A stretch of DNA of 34,384 nt from positions 1 through 34,384 of the IMG/VR virus record IMGVR_UViG_3300045922_000259. One strand, 5' to 3'. This stretch comes from a virus. This document shows, piece after piece, positions 2 through 23,850 of the stretch. Position 1 is the stretch's first letter; each line of letters opens with the position of its first letter. The notes beneath the pieces were generated by a model, which did not search any database, had not been told where the DNA came from, and saw only the letters and a program-made list of their open reading frames with translations. The translations under genes and the position numbers were made by a program.

Positions 2-346
2 CGCCACCCGATCGGCTTCATCAAGGTCGATGTCGAGCAGGTCGAGATCCCGGTGTTGCGCGGCGCGGTCAAGACCATCGCCAGGGATCGGCCGAACATC
101 ATGAGCGAGGTGACGCCGCTGCTGTATCCCGCCCCCCTGCCGGAGATGTTCCGGTTCATTCTCGAGATGGAGTATCAGGGATACGTCACGTATCGCGGGC
201 GGATCATGAGCTTCGCCGGGTTCCGCCCCGAGGTTCATGCGCGGCGGGAAGGCTTCCCGCACGACTTCATCAACAACAATGTCTTCTTCCTGCCCCGCGA
301 GGTGAACCCGCAACAGGCTTTCGGGCGGCGCTACGCGGGCGGGTGA
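2..346 (+). CDS. FkbM-family methyltransferase, C-terminal part (5' end outside window)
   Basis: The frame is open from the first bases of the window to a TGA at 344-346, giving 114 residues, so the start lies upstream. The segment GFIKVDVEQVEIPVLRGA is the characteristic FkbM SAM-methyltransferase motif, in which an acidic-rich strand is followed by E-x-x-VL-x-GA. It is followed by a P-x-I-M-x-EV strand, also typical. FkbM enzymes O-methylate sugars or lipids, often in capsule, LPS or glycolipid loci. Family membership is read directly from the motif; the substrate is unknown. It is the only clearly host-type gene on the + strand and converges on the methyltransferase gene at 393-1358. Base composition is GC-rich, unlike that neighbour. 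Confidence 0.8.
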   Translation, partial: RHPIGFIKVDVEQVEIPVLRGAVKTIARDRPNIMSEVTPLLYPAPLPEMFRFILEMEYQGYVTYRGRIMSFAGFRPEVHARREGFPHDFINNNVFFLPREVNPQQAFGRRYAGG

Positions 347-392: not shown

Positions 393-1358
393 CTAAAAGC
401 CCCCACGATAAAGCTTGATCATGTCTCGGTCAGTTATTGCATTTTCTTGTTTCTTTCCATAGAAATAGACTCCACCGGCGCTATCTATTGCCGACGGGCT
501 TCTGCGTGTGAAATAGTCGACAAACTTGAACGGCAAGCCAAAGACGAGACCGGCGAAACTTGCAACCTGCCGCCCACGTCTCGACGCCGTCACACTCACG
601 AAGAGCGATCTAATCGTCCAGGAAGCGACCGCTCCAGGGCCGAGTGCCATACCGCTCGAAATATCCGAGAAACGGCGGAAGAGACGTCGATGCCCTAGAT
701 AGGTGAAGCGGGTGAAGTCATAGGCGCCCATATGGACGGGCTGCAAGAACGGAGTTGCAGCGTAAACTCTTCCGGTCGGCTTGAGTACTCTCCAAATTTC
801 AGACACAACCCGCTGCGGGTCAGCAACATGCTCAAGAACAGCAATCACCAGCACAAAATCAAACTCCTCGTTACCAAAGGGTAGGTCGTGGGCATCAGCG
901 ATTGCACATATATCTTGGCCAAATGTGACATCTGTATATATGAAGTCGGCTGGATGTGGATAGCGTTTTGTTCCTGCGCCTATCACCAATACGCGCGGCC
1001 TCCCTATATTCTCAGAACAGAATTCCGAGAGCGCTGTCTCTGCGTATAAGTGACGGCCCTTGATAGAGAACTCTGATAATCTATGTGCAATCTTTCGATA
1101 TATACCCCTGATTCCTTTTGTTGAATCGACTTCTGACCCATAGCTTGCACCTTCATAATATTCTTTATCCATATAGTCGTTAATGGCAAATACGCTATTA
1201 TCGTCATTAATAAGCACTGGTGTTTCCTTCACTACGGGATAATTCGCACTGCATTCAGTGCATACTAAATACCCACCTGATCGATTTAGCTGTTTCATGT
1301 GGCAACGAGGGCACCAAAAGTCAGGGGGATCTTTTTCGATATCGCTTTGTGCCGTCAT
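393..1358 (-). CDS. Class I SAM-dependent methyltransferase with N-terminal zinc ribbon
   Basis: This 321-residue protein begins with a Trm112/zinc-ribbon-like segment (C16-x2-C19 and C33-x2-C36, then NYPVVKETPVLI). That is followed by a Methyltransf_11 Rossmann domain: motif I VLVIGAGT (about 123-130), ADAHDLPF (154-161) and FDFVLVIAVLEHV (166-178), then the post-motif GRVYAATPF strand. Such fusions are common in glycan, lipopolysaccharide and antigen loci. The methyl acceptor cannot be told from sequence. Its ATG overlaps the stop of a preceding open frame (ATGA at 1355-1358), suggesting it once sat inside an operon that now ends at the phage boundary. The gene is visibly more AT-rich than everything around it and uses A/T-ending codons freely, pointing to separate horizontal acquisition. 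Confidence 0.85.
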   Translation of the reverse strand: MTAQSDIEKDPPDFWCPRCHMKQLNRSGGYLVCTECSANYPVVKETPVLINDDNSVFAINDYMDKEYYEGASYGSEVDSTKGIRGIYRKIAHRLSEFSIKGRHLYAETALSEFCSENIGRPRVLVIGAGTKRYPHPADFIYTDVTFGQDICAIADAHDLPFGNEEFDFVLVIAVLEHVADPQRVVSEIWRVLKPTGRVYAATPFLQPVHMGAYDFTRFTYLGHRRLFRRFSDISSGMALGPGAVASWTIRSLFVSVTASRRGRQVASFAGLVFGLPFKFVDYFTRRSPSAIDSAGGVYFYGKKQENAITDRDMIKLYRGGF

Positions 1359-1617: not shown

Positions 1618-2292
1618 TCAGACCCACATCGCCCGCGCGCGTCCGACCGGAGATGGGGCCGGATCACCGCCACCGCCTGTCAGATCGTCGAGCACGAAGG
1701 CGTCGAACAGCGCCGCGTTGCCACTCAGCGCGAAGCCCAGGCCGCAGAACTCGCCGTTCGGCAGCGCCCCGAACGTATGGCTGACCTCGTCGTAGACGCT
1801 GAGGTCGTCGTTGCGCACACGGGCAGTGACCGCCAGACCGTCGATCTCCAGTTCAAGCCAGTACCACTTGCCCACATCGATGGCGGTGATCGTCTTCGTC
1901 GCGCGATCCGTGCCACCCGCCCAGGTCTGGCTCGCGCCCTCGCGCACCCGCAGGCTGGTGCCGCTCGTCGCCAGCAGCGCGTAGAGGGCGTTGGTGGCCG
2001 CGTTGTCGGCACCGTTCGTGCACAGGCTGGTGACGCAGAGATTGGAATGGCTGCCGTTCGGCGTGAAGCGGGTGCGGACCCTGTGGCTGCCAAGACCGGG
2101 GACCTGCACGCGGCCGTTGCGCGCATTGCTCGTGCCGCGCACCTGTCCGGCGCCGTTGCCGACAAGGTTCGCGCTCGAAATGCTGGCCCACGTCCGGGAG
2201 CCGGAGCCGCCGTTGCCATTGTCGAGCGTCCGGCCGGCGAGGCTGACGCCGTCGGCCAGTCCGGCGAAGCTGTCGGATGCGATCACTGCCAT
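1618..2292 (-). CDS. Putative phage concanavalin/LamG-like surface protein
   Basis: This 224-residue protein is the last gene of the late operon. The start is the ATG at 2292, one base after the TGA of the giant upstream gene (TGA-C-ATG), rather than an in-frame ATG 48 bp upstream inside that gene. The N-terminus (IASDSFAGLADGVSLAGR, then a Gly/Asn/Ser-rich stretch) and the C-terminal strand pattern (KWYWLELEIDGLAVTARV ... LSVYDEVSHTFGALPNGEF) resemble jelly-roll carbohydrate-binding domains found in phage tail and appendage proteins. It has no signal peptide or membrane segment. Its coupling to the polysaccharide-lyase-like protein suggests that the two act together on the virion surface. 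The fold assignment is by eye and moderate. Confidence 0.6.
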   Translation of the reverse strand: MAVIASDSFAGLADGVSLAGRTLDNGNGGSGSRTWASISSANLVGNGAGQVRGTSNARNGRVQVPGLGSHRVRTRFTPNGSHSNLCVTSLCTNGADNAATNALYALLATSGTSLRVREGASQTWAGGTDRATKTITAIDVGKWYWLELEIDGLAVTARVRNDDLSVYDEVSHTFGALPNGEFCGLGFALSGNAALFDAFVLDDLTGGGGDPAPSPVGRARAMWV

Positions 2293-2293
2293 G

Positions 2294-5200
2294 TCACGGA
2301 GCCCTGGTGTTCCATTGCGGCTTGCCGGCGCGCGAGGCATCGCTGATCCCCGCCGCCGCCTCCTCGTTTCGCAAGTAGGCCAGCGACACGCTGGCGGCCG
2401 GGATGCCGACCATTGCGCCGACCTCGCAGGCGCGACGGGCGAGGTTCGGGTAGGAGTGCCCGCCAGTCATCGTCTGCCCTAGGCCGCTCGACGGGCACGC
2501 GCCGCTTGAACCGCCCGTATCGGAGATCAGCTTCATCGTCTGCCCGGCGGCCTCAGCGCTGCTGTACGAGCAGTAGACCTCATCCCACGACGTCGCGTAG
2601 GGCGAAGCCGTTGTCGGCTGCGGACCGACGCGCAGGCTGCATCCGTAAAGGCCGCTGCCGCGATACGGGCAGGCATTGATGACGCCGAAGAGCTGCTTGG
2701 TGATGTGCTCGGCCACCAGCTTGTGCGAGGTGGTGATGCGGCCGCGCCAGATTGACATGCACATCGTCGGCACGAAGTAGCCGTGCGCCTGCCAGGGCCC
2801 GAAACCGAGCGGCTCCGTCGCGCCAAGACCGCCATACACCGAACCCCAGACGCCGAGATACGACTTCTCCGTGGAATACTGCGGCGCGGTTAGGAACTGC
2901 TCCGCGATGGCGAATCCGTTCTCCATCAGCTTGCCGAAATAGGCCTTGCACGGATGCGTGTCAGGCATCAGCCATTCGGCATCGCAGACGCTCTTGTGCC
3001 GCCAAGCATTCGTCCGGTGCTGATCGTGCATCATCGTGCCGCAGTCGCGCGATTGACCGTTCAACAACGGTCGGCGCGAGTAATTCACGGTGTTGGCCGG
3101 ATTCTCGCGGCCGATGCAGCCGACGCCCAGGATCACCATCATGTCTTGCCACCATTCCCAGCCCGTCACCATGGCCTGATAGGTGGCATATTGCGGCATG
3201 TGCGAGGCATCGTTGACCGCGCCTGCGAACTCGCCGCCCGTGCGCGTGATGGTCGCGGCCGAACCCCAGCCGACGCTGGTCTGCGCGGTCGTCAGGCCGT
3301 TCGCCGTATAGTCCTGGTTGACCAGCACCGGCGGGTGACCGCTCTCGTGCCGCACCAGCCAGCCCGGGAACTTCACGCCCATGGCCAGCGCGTTGACACG
3401 CGAATTGCGCAGCAGCGTGGCGCGGTCGGCGGCCGACTTCTCGGTACCGCTCGTCGCCAGCAGCACGTGCGCGTCCCAGTCCGGGATGTCGCCGATCCAG
3501 GCGCTCGCGCCGCCGCTGTTGATGCCGGAGCCACCGAACGCGCCGGCCGGACTGTTGGGGCTGTAGGACAGCGCCGCCGGCACCGGCACGTTCGCGCGCA
3601 GGGTCGCGCTATCGTAGGTGTTCCAGATCAGCTTGCGGTCGTGGAACCAGCGCCAAGTCGCGCGCGGATGGAAGTGCGCGGCATTGGCGGACCAATGCGG
3701 CTGGCCGTCGGCAGTGCACAGGAAATAGGCCGACCAGCCATACGCTGTGAAGCTGGTCGTGTGCGCGATGATCGACGTGTTGCCGTTCAGAAGCTCGAAC
3801 TCCTCCACGGTGTAGGATTGGCTGTTGGCGACGCGGCCGTTGATCGCATAGGGGAAGACGGTGATCGTGCCGTCCTCCCAGACATAGCTGTAGAAGTGTC
3901 CTTGCCACTGCCCCTGATCGGTGTCCGACGGGCCGGTGCCCTGCCGGAACACGCCCCAATGGTGCCACGCGCGCACGACGGGACCGACCCGACGCTCGCG
4001 GAACGTGCCCGCCGCGTCCAGGTTGTTGAGAACGCACCAGTAGTCGACGCCGTCGATGCGCAGGCGCATGCGGTAGTCCTGCGCCGTCAGCGTGCTGCGG
4101 CTGATCGTGCTGCTGTTGTTGAAGCTGCCGCTGACGACGTGGAACTCAACGTCGATCGTTGCGTTGTTTGCAACCGTCGCGATTGGCTTGAATGCAAACA
4201 CGGCGCGGCGAAGCGAGCCATCGCTGTTGTAGGTGAACCCGTCCGCCTGCTGCAGCGCGATCGGCGAGCCGTTGTAGCGCAGCTCGACGCGGCTGCCCGA
4301 CGGCACATCGCCTTCAACGAAGTTGCGGGCGATGCTGATATACGGATCGGTTCGCGATGCGCCCGAGAAGTTGTCCATTGTCACGGTTTCGAGCAGGCTG
4401 CTCTGCTGCGGCTCCTCGATCGTCACCGTGTTGCTGTCCGCTATCGGCGACGTTCCATTGAACGCCGCGCGCAGCGTGTAGGTGCCTTCTGCCGCAGGTG
4501 TCGTGACGGTCCCGGACCATGCACCGCCGGAGATGTTCGACATGGTGAATGGCGAGCCAACGTCAGCACCGCCCTGCCGCCAGACAACGGTGATGCTCGT
4601 TGGCGACCCTGTATAGCTGCCCGATACCACCAGCGGCGAATCTGTCGGCTGCGGACTGACAGGCGTCGTGATCGTGATGCTGCTGGCAACCTCGATTGTC
4701 ACCGACCCGCTGTCCGCAGTCGGCGTCGCGCCGTTGAACGCCGCGCGCAGCGTGTAGGTGCCCGGGCTGGCAGGCGCGTCGATCGTGCCGGACCAGTTGC
4801 CGCCGGACACGTTCGGGACGGTGACCGGCGATCCGACGTTCGCGCCGTTCTGCCGCCAGACAACGGTGATGCTCGTCGGCGAGCCTGCGTAGGTGCCGGA
4901 GACCGCCACAGACGCGCCCGCTGTCTGCGGACTGGACGGTGTGTTGATCGTGATGCCGTCGGCAACCTCGATCGTCACGGGGTCGCTCTCTGCGATCGGC
5001 GTCGTGCCGTTGAATGCCGCGCGCAGTGTGTAGACACCTGGCGTGGCTGGCGTCGTGATGTTGCCAGACCATGCACCGCCGGCGATATCCGACACGTTGA
5101 CAGGCGATCCGACGTTTGCGCCGTTCTGTCGCCACACGACGGTAATGTTCGACGGCGACCCTGTATAGGTGCCCGAAACAGGGATGGACAGATCGGCAGG

Positions 5201-5605
5201 GTATGTGTTCGACAGCGCGTTGATCGTAATCGAGTCAGACGGCGGCGGATTGTCTCCGTCGCCCGCAGGCGGCACGCGCTGCAACGTGATCCGCACGTTG
5301 GCGTCCGCGCTTGCCGCCGCACCCCACGCAATGCCGACGTGGAAGTTGCCCGCCGCGCTGGTCGTGATCCACCGGTTCGCGGCATCCCAGAACACGCGCG
5401 CGCCGTCCGCGATCGCCAAGCCGGGCTGCTTGGCGATCTGAAACACGCCGTCCACTGCGATCTCGACCGGCTGGTTGTGCGCGGCGGTCGAGAGCGCGAC
5501 GCCGAACAGCGCGCCGACAACGATGCACTGGCCTGCCACCACGCCTTCCGGATACGGCACGGGGACAGTGATCCGATTTGCGTTCGGAGTGAGGTTGTCT
5601 CGCAT
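2294..5605 (-). CDS. Modular virion surface protein: DUF2190 decoration domain + 3 Ig-like repeats + lyase-like C-terminus
   Basis: This 1103-residue protein starts at ATG 5605 behind AGGAG (ctAGGAGaccgcgATG). Residues 1-115 are a DUF2190 capsid-decoration domain. By eye about half its residues match the stand-alone decoration protein at 19917-20264, including the shared blocks GVFxxxK, GARxFWD and GNFxVxIA. A Pro/Asp linker leads into three near-identical 92-residue Ig-like units (126-217, 218-309, 310-397), each with SGxYxGSPxxITVVWRQ and YTLRAAFNG. From about 405 a beta-rich segment (VELRYNGSPIALQQADG ... GSLRRAVFAFKP) resembles the RIFT-barrel N-terminus of YetA/PcRGLX polysaccharide lyases. 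It is followed by a Trp/His/Tyr-rich region to the end that could be an alpha-toroid catalytic domain. The inferred role is a capsid- or tail-displayed glycan-binding or degrading protein. Enzyme activity is not proven by any motif I can name. Confidence 0.75.
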   Translation of the reverse strand: MRDNLTPNANRITVPVPYPEGVVAGQCIVVGALFGVALSTAAHNQPVEIAVDGVFQIAKQPGLAIADGARVFWDAANRWITTSAAGNFHVGIAWGAAASADANVRITLQRVPPAGDGDNPPPSDSITINALSNTYPADLSIPVSGTYTGSPSNITVVWRQNGANVGSPVNVSDIAGGAWSGNITTPATPGVYTLRAAFNGTTPIAESDPVTIEVADGITINTPSSPQTAGASVAVSGTYAGSPTSITVVWRQNGANVGSPVTVPNVSGGNWSGTIDAPASPGTYTLRAAFNGATPTADSGSVTIEVASSITITTPVSPQPTDSPLVVSGSYTGSPTSITVVWRQGGADVGSPFTMSNISGGAWSGTVTTPAAEGTYTLRAAFNGTSPIADSNTVTIEEPQQSSLLETVTMDNFSGASRTDPYISIARNFVEGDVPSGSRVELRYNGSPIALQQADGFTYNSDGSLRRAVFAFKPIATVANNATIDVEFHVVSGSFNNSSTISRSTLTAQDYRMRLRIDGVDYWCVLNNLDAAGTFRERRVGPVVRAWHHWGVFRQGTGPSDTDQGQWQGHFYSYVWEDGTITVFPYAINGRVANSQSYTVEEFELLNGNTSIIAHTTSFTAYGWSAYFLCTADGQPHWSANAAHFHPRATWRWFHDRKLIWNTYDSATLRANVPVPAALSYSPNSPAGAFGGSGINSGGASAWIGDIPDWDAHVLLATSGTEKSAADRATLLRNSRVNALAMGVKFPGWLVRHESGHPPVLVNQDYTANGLTTAQTSVGWGSAATITRTGGEFAGAVNDASHMPQYATYQAMVTGWEWWQDMMVILGVGCIGRENPANTVNYSRRPLLNGQSRDCGTMMHDQHRTNAWRHKSVCDAEWLMPDTHPCKAYFGKLMENGFAIAEQFLTAPQYSTEKSYLGVWGSVYGGLGATEPLGFGPWQAHGYFVPTMCMSIWRGRITTSHKLVAEHITKQLFGVINACPYRGSGLYGCSLRVGPQPTTASPYATSWDEVYCSYSSAEAAGQTMKLISDTGGSSGACPSSGLGQTMTGGHSYPNLARRACEVGAMVGIPAASVSLAYLRNEEAAAGISDASRAGKPQWNTRAP
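4415..5230 (-). repeat. Three tandem ~276-bp repeats encoding Ig-like domains
   Basis: Units at 5230-4955, 4954-4679 and 4678-4415 each encode one Ig-like/bacterial adhesin-type domain in the giant surface protein. The strands ITVVWRQNGANVGSPV and YTLRAAFNG recur at a 92-residue period. Similarity is visible at DNA level, implying recent duplication or homogenisation and a potential for copy-number change by recombination. Ig-like domains on phage particles are known to help weak binding to surface glycans. Confidence 0.9.
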
Positions 5606-5851: not shown

Positions 5852-6075
5852 CAGAACCGCCCGCCTTGAAGGCGATCAACCACGTCCTCGCGCTGCGCGT
5901 CGCGCTCGGCGGCCTCAGCCCGCGCGCGGGTCTGTTGCTCCTGACGCGTAGCCTCGACCTGCGCAGCGGTGCGCCCGGCGCGCCGGCCACTGAACCACAC
6001 GGTAGCCACGGCCGCGAGCACGGCACCGGCGGCTGCGAGGTAGCCCCACAGCCTGGAGAACAACACCCCGATCAT
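5851..6075 (-). CDS. Rz-like inner-membrane spanin
   Basis: This 74-residue protein has one N-terminal membrane segment (LFSRLWGYLAAAGAVLAAVA) and a charged, Gln/Glu/Arg-rich coiled-coil tail (QVEATRQEQQTRARAEAAER), the i-spanin layout. The start chosen is ATG 6075, which overlaps the endolysin stop as ATGA; a GTG seven codons upstream is the alternative. It follows the endolysin and overlaps the Rz1-like gene. It is thought to span the periplasm and bind the lipoprotein partner during lysis. Confidence 0.75.
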   Translation of the reverse strand: MIGVLFSRLWGYLAAAGAVLAAVATVWFSGRRAGRTAAQVEATRQEQQTRARAEAAERDAQREDVVDRLQGGRF

Positions 6076-6815
6076 GTCCGTTGCATCCTGATCCACGTGC
6101 TGGCGAGCCGGGCCGCGAGCACCAGCGCCACGATTCCGGCCGCGACCAAGCCCAGACTGACCCAGCGATCCAACCCGGAGAGGGCGTCGATGACCGACGA
6201 CAGGGCGGCGGCGGCGGGTGCCACGGCGGCCGCGATCCCGGTCGCCGTCTGCACCGTCGAAGTCTTCTGCGCCTCCGCCATCGTCAGCGCCGGGCGTTCC
6301 GCCCGCGCCAGCGCAGCCTCTTCGATCTCACGCACGCGGCGGGACCAGCCCTTGCTGAACGCATCCCAGTGTGGGCGCGAGCGCAGGTGGTTCAACCGCC
6401 GTTCACACAGCGCGCGGATCACCTCGGCGTGGTCGGCACGCTGGACAGCGGCGATCGTCTGCCGACCAATCGCGCCATCCACAGTGACGCCGAGCACCGT
6501 CTGCAGGTCACGCGACGCGCGGCCAACGCCACCGTGCACACTCCAATCGAACACGGCCAGATCGATCCCCGGCGGCAACTCGTCACCGCGAATGGGGTTC
6601 CAGTAGCGCGCGAGGTAGATTTCCTTGGCCTCGGCCTCGGTCATATCGCGCACGGCGTCGGCGGTCAGACTGTCGTCGCCGCGCCAGTCGCGCAGCGTGC
6701 GCAAGGTGATGCCCATGTTCGTAGCACCACCAGGGTCGCGCGGGTGATCAGCATAACCACCCTCGTGCTTCAACACGATCGCGACGCATTCGGCGAAGCG
6801 TCGGTTCTCGGTCAT
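6072..6815 (-). CDS. GH108 endolysin (N-acetylmuramidase) with C-terminal membrane segment
   Basis: This 247-residue protein starts behind GAGGAG (GAGGAGtgcgccATG). The N-terminus carries the glycosyl-hydrolase-108 signature LKHEGGYADHPRDPGGATN with catalytic Glu18. WSVHGGVGRASRDLQ and DGAIGRQT (about 117-145) mark the C-terminal half of the GH108/PG-binding_3 unit. It should cleave peptidoglycan glycan strands at lysis. An unusual hydrophobic C-terminus follows from about residue 190, with an Ala-rich stretch and then WVSLGLVAAGIVALVLAARL before a basic end. This is a membrane anchor or a fused holin-like helix. There is no separate holin gene next to it. The spanin pair follows with overlapping frames. 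Confidence 0.85.
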   Translation of the reverse strand: MTENRRFAECVAIVLKHEGGYADHPRDPGGATNMGITLRTLRDWRGDDSLTADAVRDMTEAEAKEIYLARYWNPIRGDELPPGIDLAVFDWSVHGGVGRASRDLQTVLGVTVDGAIGRQTIAAVQRADHAEVIRALCERRLNHLRSRPHWDAFSKGWSRRVREIEEAALARAERPALTMAEAQKTSTVQTATGIAAAVAPAAAALSSVIDALSGLDRWVSLGLVAAGIVALVLAARLASTWIRMQRT

Positions 6816-6825
6816 GGCGCACTCC

Positions 6826-7224
6826 TCATAGCTGGGCCGCCGCCGTGAACAACGCGTCCACCTGCTCGGCGGTAGCGAGCTGCGCGTCGATCACGGCATG
6901 GACCAGCGGATGATGACGCTCAACTTGCGTCATGGTCGCCCACGTGATCCGCGCCGCCGTCTGCTGCGCGGATGGCAGCGTAGAGAAGAACTCGTCAATC
7001 GCTTCCGGCACCGCGCCGGTCTGCGCGGCGGCGAGCGCCTCGGCTTCGGTGATCAGTCCGGCGGTTGTCAGCGCGATCAACAGTTGCCGCCGCGTGATGA
7101 CGCTCGGCACGGGTGGCGGAGCGTTGCGCAGCGCCTCGATCTCGGCGACCTCGGCGGCAGTCGCGTCGCGGACAACGGTTTCACCCGTTGCTGCGTTGAT
7201 GGACTGGATTTTGATTGCGCTCAT
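6826..7224 (-). CDS. Hypothetical phage protein between tail fibre and endolysin
   Basis: This 132-residue protein has no family I recognise. It is soluble and rich in Ala, Thr and Glu. The first 35 residues form a short beta-like segment with an alternating acidic run (VRDATAAEVAEIEALRNAPP). The rest is mostly helical (ITRRQLLIALTTAGLITEAEAL). The ATG overlaps the tail-fibre stop as ATGA. Position directly after a tail fibre suggests a fibre-assembly chaperone, but this is positional inference only. Confidence 0.6.
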   Translation of the reverse strand: MSAIKIQSINAATGETVVRDATAAEVAEIEALRNAPPPVPSVITRRQLLIALTTAGLITEAEALAAAQTGAVPEAIDEFFSTLPSAQQTAARITWATMTQVERHHPLVHAVIDAQLATAEQVDALFTAAAQL

Positions 7225-8448: not shown

Positions 8449-11400
8449 TCAGTTCAGCTTGCGGCCGTAGCCGGACGCGATCCAGTCCATCATGCGCGCG
8501 ACGCCAGCGCCAGCGGCGTTTCTGAATCGCACGTCGAATCCAGACGCGCTCTGATTGGTGATCTCCACGTAGTCACCCGATTGCAGATTCCGGCCCGTCA
8601 CACTGATCGCGGGCGTCGCAGCGAACGGCACGTTGAACAGCACGGTCATGCCAGCCGCAGGCACATTGATCCCGTCCGCACTCTCGACACGATCCGGCAT
8701 GTCGATTTCGACCGCCAGCGTGTCCACGATCGGCCGCGTCTCGCCGCCGTCCAGCGATTCGAGCGTCATGCGGAACTGGAACGCGCGCCCGCTGTAATCC
8801 CCGACCATGAACGGCTGCCACGGTCCCCACGTCGGCGAACCTGCCGGATTGTCGTTAGTTGCGCGCAGTTCCAACGCCACGTCCCATTGATCGGACGTTG
8901 TGCCGAAGATGTCCTCCACGTCAAACACGTTTCCCCAGGCAAACACGTCATCCTGGCTGCGTAGTCCCGCCGCCGCAAGCTGTGCTGAAACGCGCGACGT
9001 ATACACGTCGCCGAGGTCTGGCGACGCGAATGAGTATGTGCCCACCGTCTGTCCGGCATTGAGCGATAGCTTGTTGTTTGCCACCGATACATTGACCTTA
9101 GTCCCGCTCCACGTCGGATGCTGCGTCAACAACGCGACCGCGTTGAACGGCTGTATCGGCGTTGCCGTGTTCACGAACAGCGCTGGCGTCGGCGACAACG
9201 CACCGCTCGGCGTCTCGGCCTTCACCAGATACGTGCCTACCATCAGCGGGAGCTCAGCGATCGGCGCTGCCAGGCGCTCCGCCAGGTCCACCGAAGACGA
9301 CCACAAAACGCCAGTGAGTGCCGCCGAGAACCGCACTCGATACGTAACGAATCCCTGCGCCGGATGCGGCTTCCACGTCAGCCGCAGCGTATTGCCGAGC
9401 ACGGTGCCGCGCACGTCCTCCACGTCAGTTGGCGGCGCGCTCAAACCGAGCAGCGCAACATCCTGCTCGGTCCAAGCCGACGCGCGACCGAACACGTCAC
9501 GTGCGCGCACACGCACGCGGCCCAAGCCTTCCCGCGTGCCGACATACTCGATACTGCTCGTCGCAGTCTCGCCGACCGGATACCATGTCGGATCGCCTGG
9601 CAGGCGTATCTCGACCTGCGCTGAACGAAGCCGCGCGTCGTTTGGCTGCTTCCACGATATCGACAGCGCGGCGCTCGCTGATCCGCCCGACACGACGATG
9701 TATTCCTGCGCCGTCAGATTCGTCGGCCTCGGCAGCGGCCCGGTCGGCAGCGCTGTGAAGCTCGGGCTCTGGACGTTCAGGCCGAGTTCCACGCGCGCGT
9801 ATTTGTTTGGGTCATGGAACAGCGCCACGACCTCGAATATCGCCGGCTCCACCTCGGTAACGCTGATCACGCGGAACTGGCGCGGCTGCACCGTGCCGGC
9901 AGCCAGCAGCCATACAGCGTTCGCCGCCGGCGCGGCTGGCAACGCTGGCGTGATCGTCAACGTCGTGTGTGTGCCAGCGCCCGTCGTGACCTGCCGCTCC
10001 AACACCTGACCTGACGGCATGGTGACGCGGACCGCGTATGTCTCGCCAGGCACCAGCGTCACGGGCGCATCGAGCGTGAGCGTCGTCGTGGTGGCGGCAG
10101 CCAGACGCCCGCCCATCCGCAACCCGGCGATCCATCGATCCGCCACCGCGATGATATCGCCCGGCCGAAGATCGGCGTGATCCAGCGCCGCGCGATACGT
10201 CACGGTTTCGGTCGCCGTCTGCTCAGTGTCGAGAAGCCACCGTCCGAGACGTCGCGCCAGGCCGCGTGACGTGCAGCCAACCGCCGCGATTTCTGTCTGT
10301 CGCACGCCCCAGCGCTGAATGCCCTCGGGATTGTCGACCCACTCAATCGACGGCTTGAAACCGTTGCTCGGATCGCTCCACGTGACCTGCGCGACGGTGT
10401 GGCGTGCCGACAGGCTCGAACCCTGGTAGGAGAACACGCCGTCGATCACGTTCGCATTCGTTACGAGTTTCACCGGATCGCCGGGACGATCCTGCGTTGC
10501 GGTGATCCGCCCAGCGCCCCAATAGATCATCCCTCGGAAGGACGCGGCGACAGTCTGCAACGCATCCCATGCGTCAGATGCGGCGACAAGCGCGCCATTG
10601 AACGTGTAGCGCGGCTCCATCCCACCAGCGCCGTCCGGCACAAGCTCGTCGCAATATTGCGCGATCTCATACAGCGCCCACTTGTCCACCCACGCAGGTT
10701 GGATGTGGCGGCCTAGCCCGTAACGCTCATTCGTTAGCAGGTCGTAGAAGACCCATGCAGGATTATCGGTGAACGCGGTCTTGAACGTGCCATTCCATAC
10801 GCCGGTGTAAGTTCGCGTCACCGGATTGTAGTTGATCGGCACCCGCAAGGTGCGACCCCTGACGTCGTATTCGCGTCGCGGGATCGTCGAGAAATACGCA
10901 GCGTCGATCGCCAACCCGATATGCGCCGTGTCGGGATAAGACAACCGCCAGTCCAGGACCTCCGTGTAGGACGACCACCATGTTTCGTTCTGCAGCGTCG
11001 TCGTTGTATCGTTATCCGGCGTGAGCCTGCGCACGCGCACTTGCCACGGCGCGCCGCCAGACGGCAGATCGATGCGATACTCGCGCTCGTAGGGCGACGT
11101 GCACTTGCCAGCGATGGTGTCCTGTCTGACCTCCGTCCACTGGCCGGTGTTGGTTTTCACGTCGATCGCGATAGCGACGGACGTGCCGTAGATGCTCCCG
11201 GATGACTGATCAACGCTTGACAGCGCAGGGATGCGAATCTTCACTCGCACCGCGCTCAGCGGCGTGCTGTTGATGGTTCGCACCACAGGCGTGTCTGCGC
11301 GGACGCGGACGCCGACCGCCACTTCGGTCTCCGCCGCGTTGGCGCCTGGAAGCGGGTGCTGGTCCGGCAGACCTGCCATGAGCGCCCATGTGACGCCCTT

Positions 11401-11613
11401 GAAATTCGGCGACCCGTCCGGATTTACGAGCGGTGTGCCATCGAAATAAATGCTCCGCGCGCCGTTTACGAGACCGACGATCGGCCCCTCGCCGAGCACG
11501 TCGATAATGCGCGCCGTTGACGTTGCGCGCAGCGTATTCGGGTCCTCGCGCGGTGTAGGCTGACTTCCACCGCCCTTGCCTCCACCGCCGCGACCACGGA
11601 TTACCGTCGTCAC
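8449..11613 (-). CDS. J: Tail tip / central fibre protein (lambda J-like)
   Basis: This 1054-residue protein starts at GTG 11613, whose bases overlap the stop of gene I (GTGA). The Gly/Lys-rich N-terminus (RGRGGGGKGGGSQPTPRE) is followed by RATSTARIIDVLGEGPIVGL and DGTPLVN, all hallmarks of J-type host-specificity proteins. PAWVFYDLLTNERYGLGRHI (about 283-302) is the conserved hub motif. Fibronectin-III-like segments (PRPTNLTAQEYIVVSGG, PPTDVEDV) follow near residues 620-740. The C-terminal part ends in a beta domain (GRNLQSGDYVEITNQSA). It forms the tail tip, closes the tube and takes part in DNA injection. Confidence 0.92.
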   Translation of the reverse strand: MTTVIRGRGGGGKGGGSQPTPREDPNTLRATSTARIIDVLGEGPIVGLVNGARSIYFDGTPLVNPDGSPNFKGVTWALMAGLPDQHPLPGANAAETEVAVGVRVRADTPVVRTINSTPLSAVRVKIRIPALSSVDQSSGSIYGTSVAIAIDVKTNTGQWTEVRQDTIAGKCTSPYEREYRIDLPSGGAPWQVRVRRLTPDNDTTTTLQNETWWSSYTEVLDWRLSYPDTAHIGLAIDAAYFSTIPRREYDVRGRTLRVPINYNPVTRTYTGVWNGTFKTAFTDNPAWVFYDLLTNERYGLGRHIQPAWVDKWALYEIAQYCDELVPDGAGGMEPRYTFNGALVAASDAWDALQTVAASFRGMIYWGAGRITATQDRPGDPVKLVTNANVIDGVFSYQGSSLSARHTVAQVTWSDPSNGFKPSIEWVDNPEGIQRWGVRQTEIAAVGCTSRGLARRLGRWLLDTEQTATETVTYRAALDHADLRPGDIIAVADRWIAGLRMGGRLAAATTTTLTLDAPVTLVPGETYAVRVTMPSGQVLERQVTTGAGTHTTLTITPALPAAPAANAVWLLAAGTVQPRQFRVISVTEVEPAIFEVVALFHDPNKYARVELGLNVQSPSFTALPTGPLPRPTNLTAQEYIVVSGGSASAALSISWKQPNDARLRSAQVEIRLPGDPTWYPVGETATSSIEYVGTREGLGRVRVRARDVFGRASAWTEQDVALLGLSAPPTDVEDVRGTVLGNTLRLTWKPHPAQGFVTYRVRFSAALTGVLWSSSVDLAERLAAPIAELPLMVGTYLVKAETPSGALSPTPALFVNTATPIQPFNAVALLTQHPTWSGTKVNVSVANNKLSLNAGQTVGTYSFASPDLGDVYTSRVSAQLAAAGLRSQDDVFAWGNVFDVEDIFGTTSDQWDVALELRATNDNPAGSPTWGPWQPFMVGDYSGRAFQFRMTLESLDGGETRPIVDTLAVEIDMPDRVESADGINVPAAGMTVLFNVPFAATPAISVTGRNLQSGDYVEITNQSASGFDVRFRNAAGAGVARMMDWIASGYGRKLN

Positions 11614-20323: not shown

Positions 20324-22378
20324 TCACAGACCGGGGTTGAACCACGCGCCGCGCCAGTCAATGGCGCCGACACCGAAGTCGAACACAACGCTGACCTCGA
20401 TGCCGTCGGTGCTCTGCACCGGTCCCGTCGTGACCTGCGGTCCCTGGGCGCCGTTGAGATAGCCATACATGTAGACTGGCGCCGTCAGCGGATCGGAGAA
20501 CAGATACCACCGATTGTTCGGGATCAGCGGCTCGACAAGCGGCTGGAGCAGACCCGACCACACGTTGGCGTTGGACACCTGCGCGGCCGCGACGGGCACC
20601 GTGATCTGCCGCGCCGCGAGCTCCTGATTCGGCCCGACCAGAAGCGTCATGCGGCTACCGATGGAGATCGGCAGACCGTCGAGCGTCTTCTGCTTCATGA
20701 TCGCCGCGCGACCAGCGCCGACGTTGGTTAGGTCGATCGCCGTGCCCGACGCTGCCTTATTCGCACGCGCCGCGCCAGTCGCGAACACCGGCGCGTTGCC
20801 GGTGGTCAGCGTCGGACCATCGCCGCTCGCGCTGTTGAGCAGCGCGTAGGCCGTCGCGTTCTCGAAGTCGGCCACGCGCCGACCGATCATCGCCGCGAAG
20901 TCGGTAAAGGCGCCGAGGTCGTCATTCACCAGCATCTGTCGCGTGACGCGGATGCGCCGCGCGAACGTCTGCAGGTAGACGATCTCCTGGCTCTCGCTGA
21001 GCGTGCCGGCCACGATCTCGCCGCCCTCGCCGAGCGGGAGGAGAGTCGGGAAGTCGCCGGCGCGCAGGAAGCGGTGCGCCTTGAAGTCCCTGAAGTCCCG
21101 ACGCATGAAAATCTGCCGATAGGTCGGCTGCGCCGGTTCATACGAGGCGAGCAGCATCTTGTTTGCCGCCGCCGAAAGCAGAAGCGGGAAGTCACTTGTC
21201 GTGTGAAACGCGCGTTCGGCCAGCACGGCCGGGTTGCGCGGGATGTTGCGCTCGCCCCGCGCGCGCATGATCTCCGCGATCATGTCGGATGGACGCCAAC
21301 CCATGAACTCGACGTGACGGCCGTTGCCGCGCGGCTGGTAGCCGGGCATGGCGCGGACCGCGATCGCCTCCGCCATGGCGTCGATGATCGCCGTCGGATC
21401 GTCACCGCTGTTCGGGTCCACTACGATCGGCGGCCGTGGCTGGCTGCGCACCAGTTCGTCGAACAGCGCCTTGCGCGTGTCATCGGCCGACCAGCCGTCG
21501 GCGATCGCCTTTGCACGCACTGCGGTGACGCGATCGGCCGGCAGCATCGCGCGCGCCGCTTCGATCGCACTGTCGATCCCAGCGATGCGTTCGCGTTCGG
21601 CGCGCTGCGCCTCCGCGCGGACGACATCGATGTCGACCGTCGCGGGAACGGCGCGTTCGGTCTCTGTGGCCTGGCTCACGGTGGTCTCGTGCTGCGAGGT
21701 CGTCGGCGCGGCGGACGGCTGCGCCGACATGTTGGCGGCCGGCTCGGCCGGCGACTTCTGAGGCATCATCGTCTCCTGTTCGATCAGGGCTGGCTCAACT
21801 GCGACGGCGGGCGCGCCCTGCAACGCCTCGCCTCGCATCGCCGCGTCCCGATCCACCGGGATCGGCACGACGGAAATCTCGAATGGCTCCCAGTCCACAG
21901 CGCGATGCACCGTCTCGCCGGTCGCGCTGTCTGGCTGCTGCTCGTAGCGGTGCACGCGATACCCGACACTCACTGCGCGGAGTGTGCCGTCAGCGATACG
22001 TTGCCATACCGGCTCGACATCGCCGGCCGATGAGAACTGCAACGTCGCATAGCCGCGTCCGCCTTCGATCCGTGCAGACGTGACGCGCCCGAGCACGTCG
22101 CGTGCACCGCCCCGGCGATGGGTGTCGAGCACCGGAGCGCGGCCGGAACGCAGCGCGTCCATCCGCACCGCGTTCGGCGACATGTCAAGTTCTTCGGTGA
22201 TGATCCCAAGCGAAGGCACGTAGTTGCGCGCACGCGCGCCCGTCGACCACACGACCTCGACCGTGCGCGCTGCCTGATCAACGGTCGCCGGCGCAGTGAT
22301 CGCGCGCTGCGCTACGACCGGACCGCTTGCTTCGGTCGCCGACGCGCTGGTGTCTGCGGCCTGTTCGTTATGCTCCAT
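20324..22378 (-). CDS. Prohead protease / major capsid protein fusion
   Basis: This 684-residue protein starts at the second of two adjacent ATGs (22378), which is best spaced from GGAGG; the portal stop overlaps it. Residues about 25-190 form an HK97-type prohead protease (S78-like): RNYVPSLGIITEELDM, LDTHRRGGARDVLGRV with the candidate catalytic His, LRAVSVGYRV with the candidate Ser, and PFEISVVPIPVDRDA. An Ala/Pro/Gln-rich linker and a helical scaffold-like region (about 200-300) follow. The rest (about 330-684) is the HK97-fold capsid, including RNIPRNPAVLAERAFHTTSD, the E-loop region and PTLLPLGEGGEI. Single-chain protease-capsid fusions are known in related phages. The protease should cut itself away during maturation. 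Confidence 0.92.
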   Translation of the reverse strand: MEHNEQAADTSASATEASGPVVAQRAITAPATVDQAARTVEVVWSTGARARNYVPSLGIITEELDMSPNAVRMDALRSGRAPVLDTHRRGGARDVLGRVTSARIEGGRGYATLQFSSAGDVEPVWQRIADGTLRAVSVGYRVHRYEQQPDSATGETVHRAVDWEPFEISVVPIPVDRDAAMRGEALQGAPAVAVEPALIEQETMMPQKSPAEPAANMSAQPSAAPTTSQHETTVSQATETERAVPATVDIDVVRAEAQRAERERIAGIDSAIEAARAMLPADRVTAVRAKAIADGWSADDTRKALFDELVRSQPRPPIVVDPNSGDDPTAIIDAMAEAIAVRAMPGYQPRGNGRHVEFMGWRPSDMIAEIMRARGERNIPRNPAVLAERAFHTTSDFPLLLSAAANKMLLASYEPAQPTYRQIFMRRDFRDFKAHRFLRAGDFPTLLPLGEGGEIVAGTLSESQEIVYLQTFARRIRVTRQMLVNDDLGAFTDFAAMIGRRVADFENATAYALLNSASGDGPTLTTGNAPVFATGAARANKAASGTAIDLTNVGAGRAAIMKQKTLDGLPISIGSRMTLLVGPNQELAARQITVPVAAAQVSNANVWSGLLQPLVEPLIPNNRWYLFSDPLTAPVYMYGYLNGAQGPQVTTGPVQSTDGIEVSVVFDFGVGAIDWRGAWFNPGL
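21764..21777 (-). promoter_or_regulatory. Possible internal ribosome site and start for a protease-free capsid product
   Basis: Inside the fusion gene, AGGAG (21777-21773) precedes twin ATGs at 21769 and 21766, with 3 and 6 nt spacing. The 6-nt spacing to 21766 is ideal. Initiation here would make a product lacking the protease domain but keeping the helical scaffold and capsid, as lambda gene C makes Nu3 from an internal start. Confidence 0.5.
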
Positions 22379-23850
22379 CATGGCCTCCGAGCAGCGATCT
22401 CGTCCGATGCCGCGCTTGTCGCCGCGATCTCGATCGCCGCCATCTGCGACGGGTCTTGCGCCGCACCGGACTTCGTTACACGGCGCGGGTCCGTATCGAG
22501 CGAAATGCCCGCGTCATCGAGCAGCGCGTTGATCTGACGGATCGACGCGATCATCTCGCGGAAGTCGTAACCAAACGACGCCACCGCGTCCGCCCAGGAC
22601 ACATACCCGGCGCGCACTTGCATGATCAGCGCCGTCGTATCCTTGAGCGGATCGATCATCTCATGCGTCGGCGGGACGTGCGAGACGCCCTCCGGCATCG
22701 CCGCGTCCCACAGTCCGAGCAACGCGCCCTGCGCGTGGAATCGATCCGCCACGCGCTGCACCAGCATCGGGATCAACATCCCGTATTGCACCTGCTCACA
22801 CAAACGCCTGAACTCGATCTTGCCTGCGCGCAGCGACGAATAGTTCGCTTGCGTCAGGTCTCCCGACACCTGGTCGTATGTGAGGCCCGCGCCAACGGCA
22901 GTTGCTTCAAGGGCGCGTCGTGCGAACTCTTGATGCGCACCACCGCCCGACGGATTCACGACGTCGACACTGCCCGCGCCGCGCCGATACAGGATCATGC
23001 CAGGCTCGAAGCTTTCGACGGCACGACCGTGCGCGTCGCGCAGCAAGCTCGCCGCCTGGCCTGTCAGCGTGTCGTCGCCCTCCTCGGTTACGACTGCTGC
23101 CAGGCAAGCCTCGATCTTTGCCTTCATCAGCAGCGCCGTCTCGTAGTCGCCGAGATCGCGCAGCCTCAACAGCACCGGCGCGAGCCAAGATACGTCTCGC
23201 AACTGCCCGGGCCGACGCTTCCGATAGACGTGCAATACCTCCGACGCCGGAATGAATTCGCTGGTCATTCCAACGCCTGGCAGCATCCATCCGCCTGGAT
23301 GCGCGCGATACATCCAGTAGCCCGTTGGACGCCCGGCCTCGCCAAGCACGATTCCCTGCACCGTCGGCGCGCCGTCCACCATGCCATTGCGCGAGGTGTC
23401 GAGATAATCGCTCTCCATGACCTGCAACTGCAGGCCGATCGGATTCGCAGGCGACGGCTGCACGACGCGAAAACGCACAAAGCACTCGCCGCTCTCTACC
23501 ACGGCACGCATCACCAGCGCTTGGATGCCGGCGAAGTTCAGATGCCCCTCCGCGTCGCACTCCGCACTTGCCGACCAGCGCGACCACACGTGCGAGTGCA
23601 TCTCGTCCGGCCAGCTCGTCTTGATCCCGTCGCCGACCGCGTTGCCGGTCCACAAATCCACAATCCGGCTGGCGTAGGGATCGTTGCGCACCGCGTCGCG
23701 CGCACGCCGAGCAATCGTCGCCGCAGCAATCCCTACCTCTGTCGTGGCGCTATTGCCTGACGGTGCCCAGGTGGACGACCGCTGATCCAGCGCCGCGTCA
23801 TACCCACGAAACACCTTCAGTGCGCGCCGGAATCGATCAACGATGCCCAT
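22378..23850 (-). CDS. B: Portal protein (lambda B-like)
   Basis: This 490-residue protein starts at ATG 23850, overlapping the gpW-like stop (TGATG). It has the lambda-type portal features: RNDPYASRIVDLWTGNAVGDG near the N-terminus, SGECFVRFRV, IQGIVLGE-type strand, ASEVLHVYRKRRPGQLRDVS and YDQVSGDLTQANYSSLRAGK (about 340-360). It forms the dodecameric ring through which DNA is packaged and leaves. Size and neighbours fit exactly. Confidence 0.93.
   Translation of the reverse strand: MGIVDRFRRALKVFRGYDAALDQRSSTWAPSGNSATTEVGIAAATIARRARDAVRNDPYASRIVDLWTGNAVGDGIKTSWPDEMHSHVWSRWSASAECDAEGHLNFAGIQALVMRAVVESGECFVRFRVVQPSPANPIGLQLQVMESDYLDTSRNGMVDGAPTVQGIVLGEAGRPTGYWMYRAHPGGWMLPGVGMTSEFIPASEVLHVYRKRRPGQLRDVSWLAPVLLRLRDLGDYETALLMKAKIEACLAAVVTEEGDDTLTGQAASLLRDAHGRAVESFEPGMILYRRGAGSVDVVNPSGGGAHQEFARRALEATAVGAGLTYDQVSGDLTQANYSSLRAGKIEFRRLCEQVQYGMLIPMLVQRVADRFHAQGALLGLWDAAMPEGVSHVPPTHEMIDPLKDTTALIMQVRAGYVSWADAVASFGYDFREMIASIRQINALLDDAGISLDTDPRRVTKSGAAQDPSQMAAIEIAATSAASDEIAARRP

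Follow-up and report, generated by a model that had tools for sequence, protein, structure and literature searches.

The 1103-aa protein described here is probably a second, elongated capsid decoration protein, forming a head-mounted arm that binds glycans and possibly cuts them. It is encoded in the window, the whole stretch of 34,384 nucleotides of viral DNA that was analyzed (IMG/VR record IMGVR_UViG_3300045922_000259), and it joins a capsid cement domain to three Ig-like domains and a PL26-like module. The head-mounted reading draws on the homology and conservation of the anchor, the existence of a trimeric relative that decorates capsids (phiCD508 gp48), the occurrence of the C-terminal domain family in phage virion modules (L148, L144), the independent recurrence of the arrangement in a Mu-like prophage (G950), and the existence in other particles of cell- or glycan-binding arms anchored on the capsid. 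From these data, we infer a location in the virion.

Table 1. Features of the window, with coordinates as window positions
Feature	Coordinates	Strand	Basis or remark
Fusion protein, 1103 aa: cement + three Ig-like domains + PL26-like three-domain module	2294..5605	-	RBS AGGAG upstream
DUF2190 / Phage_cement_2 domain, residues 1-115, proposed capsid anchor	5261..5605	-	profile and conservation
Three tandem bacterial Ig-like domains, residues 125-400, proposed spacer or glycan-binding stalk	4406..5233	-	
RIFT-type beta-barrel + beta-sandwich + alpha/alpha-toroid module, PL26/PcRGLX-like, residues 404-1103	2297..4396	-	
224-aa protein, probably beta-sandwich by eye	1618..2292	-	kept downstream of PL26-like gene in Elioraea
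Stand-alone DUF2190 capsid cement, 115 aa	19917..20264	-	PF09956, phrog_122, 9gay_C
Fused protease / major capsid protein, immediately 5′ of cement gene	20324..22381	-	phrog_4523, E 4e-162
Tail tip / central fiber protein J	8449..11613	-	phrog_31, E 7e-276
phrog_6034 gene, after fiber gene	6826..7224	-	family also precedes fusion gene in Mu-like prophage
Endolysin, GH108	6072..6815	-	

The minus strand encodes nearly all of the window's structural genes. The long ORF and the stand-alone cement gene named in the original prediction are both present, with 1103 and 115 codons, and both are on this strand. The fusion ORF is unbroken throughout, has the top coding score among the ORFs of the window, and carries its AGGAG ribosome-binding site immediately 5′ of the ATG. 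The protein sequence shows no apparent signal peptide or membrane segment, so the product should stay intracellular up to lysis, within reach of assembling particles. The window record consists of one linear IMG/VR contig; a second, independent assembly of the cement–Ig junction was not found. The operon has the fusion gene at its tail/lysis end, away from the capsid genes, and we count both this position and the single assembly against the head-mounted reading. The phage's own cement gene occupies the usual place for a cement, just downstream of the fused protease/major capsid gene, whose product in this phage is a single 685-aa protein. Adjacency to these genes as a stand-alone gene, which is usual for DUF2190 cements but not strictly defining, is found for the 115-aa cement and not for the fusion. 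At the left edge of the window, the 3′ end of a coding-looking gene (2-346, plus strand) is cut by the contig edge; it is FkbM-type methyltransferase-like by eye, so this edge may be host DNA. Near the phage end lies a SAM-dependent methyltransferase gene (393-1358, minus strand) with a G+C of 0.48 versus 0.65 for the element, possibly lysogenic-conversion cargo or host flank.

The N-terminal 115 residues of the fusion protein are homologous to the phage's own cement, and about half of them are identical, as had been predicted by eye (BLASTP 55/104, 53%, ungapped, E 3e-33). Both proteins pass the Pfam cut-off of 24 for Phage_cement_2 (PF09956), with 83.2 bits for the fusion and 105.9 bits for the stand-alone protein, and both match phrog_122, annotated as head decoration. 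By PDB sequence search, the nearest solved relative of the stand-alone cement is phiCD508 gp48 (9gay_C, E 3e-7), which decorates a T=7 capsid with 420 copies arranged as trimers, each trimer contacting nine capsid proteins (PMC11948020). Where positions are classed as conserved or variable among diverse cements, the fusion anchor retains 27 of the 35 conserved and 39 of the 80 variable ones (Fisher p 0.004). Several observations count against the head-mounted reading: the eight conserved positions that were lost include two glycines and four threonines, the anchor evolves fast (a long branch of 1.33 changes per column in the tree), and residues 53-121 are modeled with low confidence in the monomer. 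The preferential retention of conserved positions nonetheless indicates that the fold of the anchor is constrained, despite the long branch. It is certain that the anchor is a second cement copy in this phage.

How this copy arose is a separate matter. The original prediction described the domain as duplicated and its gene as a later acquisition. Identity to the anchor over the full alignment is 50% for the phage's own cement and up to 57% for cements of other phages. The tree leaves the anchor unplaced, and a joint clade of anchor and own cement was neither recovered nor rejected (AU test, p-AU 0.339). The own cement is thus not a closer relative of the anchor than the cements of other phages are, and the second copy need not stem from duplication within this phage. 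Later acquisition finds no compositional support, as the G+C of 0.65-0.69 equals that of the rest of the phage.

The expected three Ig-like domains are present between residues 125 and 400 as tandem repeats of ~92 aa that are 63-66% identical in protein sequence. When scanned alone, this region scores 27.6 bits against the bacterial Ig-like profile Big_13 (cut-off 27), and the repeats are modeled as beta-sandwiches with pLDDT mostly 80-90. Chance does not account for the cement homology and these repeats. A Hoc capsid-binding domain was absent from the fusion in the profile scan, the anchor being PF09956 instead.

With its own sequence as the query, the C-terminal module (residues 404-1103) finds no match in Pfam, PHROGs, NCBIfam, or the PDB, and profiles of the domain found nothing useful among PDB sequences. 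Its family is large, with members in Alphaproteobacteria and in phages, and has an N-terminal barrel like that of the PL26 rhamnogalacturonan lyase PcRGLX. Several relatives match the PcRGLX RIFT-barrel profile PF19501, including phage relatives L141 and L145 (22.9 and 25.9 bits; cut-off 22.1) and, with an E of 0.028, the copy from Elioraea; the window protein itself does not match. The AlphaFold2 model of the module (mean pLDDT 52, pTM 0.60) contains a barrel, a beta-sandwich, and then helices, and this order agrees with the RIFT barrel, beta-sandwich, and alpha/alpha toroid of PL26. The only significant PDB matches of this low-confidence model in Foldseek are PL26 exo-rhamnogalacturonan lyases (E 7e-5; TM 0.19 over 269 columns), and its best BFVD match is an unnamed viral protein of 738 aa, aligned end to end. 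The low pLDDT and TM values weigh against the head-mounted, glycan-active reading. The family alignment contains invariant H, R, W, and D positions. Because homologues match the PcRGLX barrel and the top PDB matches are PL26 lyases, the earlier description of the region as lyase-like holds at the level of remote fold similarity, whereas catalysis, and with it the cutting of glycans, is what we infer. We conclude from sequence and predicted structure that the module is likely remotely PL26-like and carbohydrate-directed.

Profile searches recovered more than a dozen distant relatives of the module in Alphaproteobacteria, many of which have signal-like N-termini or RTX/cadherin-type repeats. Exact peptide patterns found no close relatives in viral contigs; a deeper alignment revealed nine IMG/VR contigs with divergent stand-alone copies. 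The phage homologue in L148 follows a virion structural gene and lies near terminase, protease-capsid, and portal genes, that in L144 lies between tail-fiber and lysis genes, and those in L140, L141, and L146 are solitary, outside the tail operon. Two PL26-like copies (L144:8995-12678 and L147:8986-12675) have an extra C-terminal region that is alpha/beta hydrolase-like by eye (GGSMGGWG motif). Near the L148 homologue, a gene matching the PHROG "alpha-2,3-sialyltransferase" (L148:13815-14474) is a further glycan gene in the same module.

The sole close homologue of the C-terminal module, 77% identical over 700 aa, is found in Elioraea tepidiphila DSM 17972. It has no cement or Ig domains and starts with a glycine-rich leader of ~35 aa. 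Its gene is preceded by one with phage tail repeats (PF12789) and followed, as in the window, by the gene for the 224-aa protein, which is 75% identical between the two. The dN/dS values of 0.28 for the module and 0.23 for its neighbor indicate purifying selection on both genes after their divergence from the Elioraea copies. The 224-aa protein is likely a partner of the fusion protein, and the enzyme-like module is interchangeable, given an Elioraea copy that lacks cement and Ig domains and keeps the same neighbor. In Elioraea, these genes belong to a five-gene tail-fiber-like cassette (L003:7443-12776), with no other phage structural genes recognized in the 22-kb sequence. Its flanks are host-type by eye, for example with an ABC-transporter cluster on the upstream side and a gene resembling cysteine synthase on the downstream side. 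The cassette may represent the remains of a phage or, alternatively, a gene transfer agent's unlinked fiber locus.

Extensions downstream of a cement domain are rare. Base-by-base reading of 151 distinct DUF2190 loci showed at least 25 residues after the domain at the window locus alone, and 22 of 22 related records have one cement each. At DUF2190 matches in 397 genomes of the order, long stop-to-stop frames all extend upstream only. Frames of up to 666 aa at other matches were rejected as fusions since their extra length is upstream; a 3254-aa "giant DUF2190 frame" (G1066:C19) is an N-run artifact, and a 470-aa frame in G1185 is a cement followed by a capsid gene. No fusion was found in published phage records, where the sole phage-collection match covers the cement part, and the literature searched yielded no publications that describe fusions of DUF2190 or capsid decoration proteins with an enzyme attached. 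A DUF2190-like 316-aa protein in G855 (L232:962-1930), with ~200 extra residues, is encoded just upstream of a probable capsid gene; it is uncertain, being above the cut-off in the genome search and not in hmmscan. A phylum-wide scan, part of genome searches that sampled databases rather than exhausting them, found only one other long cement fusion, and we count this scarcity against the head-mounted reading.

This second fusion lies in the G950 prophage, which is also IMGVR_UViG_2693429863_000004 and has an identical sequence in the two collections. The designation Mu-like rests on the similarity of the prophage's cement and capsid genes to their RcapMu counterparts and on the order of these genes. 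Its own cement (112 aa, PF09956 37.1 bits) is encoded between the head maturation protease and the major head protein. Approximately 15.7 kb downstream, after J-like tail fiber and phrog_6034 genes, is the gene for a protein of 621 aa. Over its first ~115 residues, this protein shares 51% identity with that cement (E 3e-26), and it scores 29.6 bits against PF09956, above the cut-off. The gene of the 621-aa protein overlaps the stop codon of the preceding one, suggesting translational coupling from its TTG start. The ~500 residues after the cement domain contain motifs that are SGNH-hydrolase-like by eye only (HSGHSLTDAY ... DDIHP) and have no Pfam or PDB assignment. Cements of the G950 type are fused at none of 30 or so other loci; in the relative RcapMu, the cement stands alone, and J is followed by a "tail protein" with a SASA-esterase domain and a different N-terminus. 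The window phage and the G950 prophage represent two cement lineages, and in both a second cement domain is joined to a large module and encoded where the tail operon ends. We read this recurrence in two unrelated phages as a probable convergent design, not a coincidence.

The strongest competing explanation, which we consider unlikely, is a tail-associated receptor-binding protein or depolymerase that has borrowed DUF2190 for trimerization or attachment and carries its arm at the tail tip. Gene order is consistent with this arrangement, as both fusions are located after J, the fiber gene, and the phrog_6034 gene. Homologous or merely analogous proteins with glycan-directed modules at this position, namely the Elioraea copy behind its tail-repeat gene and the SASA-domain protein of RcapMu behind J, have different, tail-type N-termini. 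The fusions, however, use a head-decoration family specifically, and do so twice, from two cement lineages, whereas a tail use of DUF2190 was never met in over 150 loci. The fusion N-terminus is a cement domain rather than a tail-attachment type, and a beta-helix spike architecture is not seen in the model of the C-terminal domain.

Less probable still is a soluble enzyme outside the virion that is produced late, escapes when the cell lyses, and loosens the slime of the host, its cement domain serving for oligomerization only. A capsid-cement domain would be an improbable choice for that role, and its conserved core is still present. The location of the fusion gene beside the lysis genes (6072-6815) fits such an enzyme, as do the export of bacterial relatives and the solitary phage relatives in L140, L141, and L146. 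Finally, a functionless ORF, arising by chance or as a recent chimera from recombination or assembly, is highly improbable: although the fusion is unique in the databases searched and its anchor is fast-evolving, the intact frame with its coding score and ribosome-binding site, the purifying selection on the C-terminal domain and the 224-aa neighbor, and the independent G950 parallel, identical in two collections, all argue against it.

On the head-mounted reading, the fusion protein would be made late, with no apparent export, and would join heads via its cement domain. The anchor would fill a minority of the decoration sites in competition with the 115-aa cement, either alone or in mixed trimers, and a mixed capsid of ordinary and arm-bearing cements would be a reasonable outcome; two decoration proteins are present simultaneously on the head of Sf14 (PMC11821841). 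The Ig stalk would hold the PL26-like module off the shell, allowing it to bind, and perhaps cleave, host or environmental surface polysaccharide. The arm may thereby help the particle adhere to, or traverse, host exopolysaccharide.

Polysaccharide-degrading enzymes of tailed phages are regarded as tail parts. Tentatively, and with slightly less than even confidence, we suggest that phages repeatedly make head-mounted enzymes by fusing a glycan-active module from the tail-fiber region to a second cement domain of their own type; in the resulting mixed capsids, arms of 500-1000 residues would project from a few sites. If true, this would be a route by which the head takes over receptor or polysaccharide functions from the tail; head surfaces too would carry enzymatic or lectin arms, cement lattices could be mixed, and the cement domain would be a natural display anchor for modules of this size.

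Multidomain head decorations are already known, including Hoc, phi29 gp8.5, and the RcGTA head spikes. Among them, Hoc, N4 gp17, and phi29 gp8.5 are capsid-anchored arms that bind cells or glycans, and Hoc-type Ig arms aid adhesion (PMC7602432). T4 Hoc, N4 gp17, and T5 pb10 resemble the fusion in being elongated, with Ig-like domains and a capsid-binding domain, and a role in adhesion has been proposed for them (PMC7602432). Hoc, however, has neither a cement-type anchor nor an enzyme-like module, whereas the fusion uses the main cement fold a second time, as its anchor, and continues into the ~700-aa PL26-like module. Phi29 gp8.5 likewise combines an N-terminal cement-like (beta-tulip) capsid base with a long projection (PMC7602432), but it projects a helical supercoil, and its base is cement-like rather than an established DUF2190 member. 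The RcGTA spikes are head-mounted on an alphaproteobacterial phage-like particle and bind capsular polysaccharide; they are pentameric and composed of two proteins, for which no DUF2190 or PL26-like domain is reported (PMC10218006). Tail-spike depolymerases would share with the fusion the character of phage-borne glycan-active proteins, but they differ in their anchor and in the beta-helix, which the C-terminal model lacks. The PL26 exo-rhamnogalacturonan lyase PcRGLX (5xqj) has the RIFT barrel that relatives of the C-terminal module match, and PL26 lyases are the best Foldseek matches of the module, although the relationship is remote, with no PDB sequence match. Closest to the anchor are phiCD508 gp48 and the other PF09956 cements, which belong to its sequence family and form capsid decoration trimers; these proteins are stand-alone, about 115 aa long, and armless, whereas the fusion extends the same domain into an arm.
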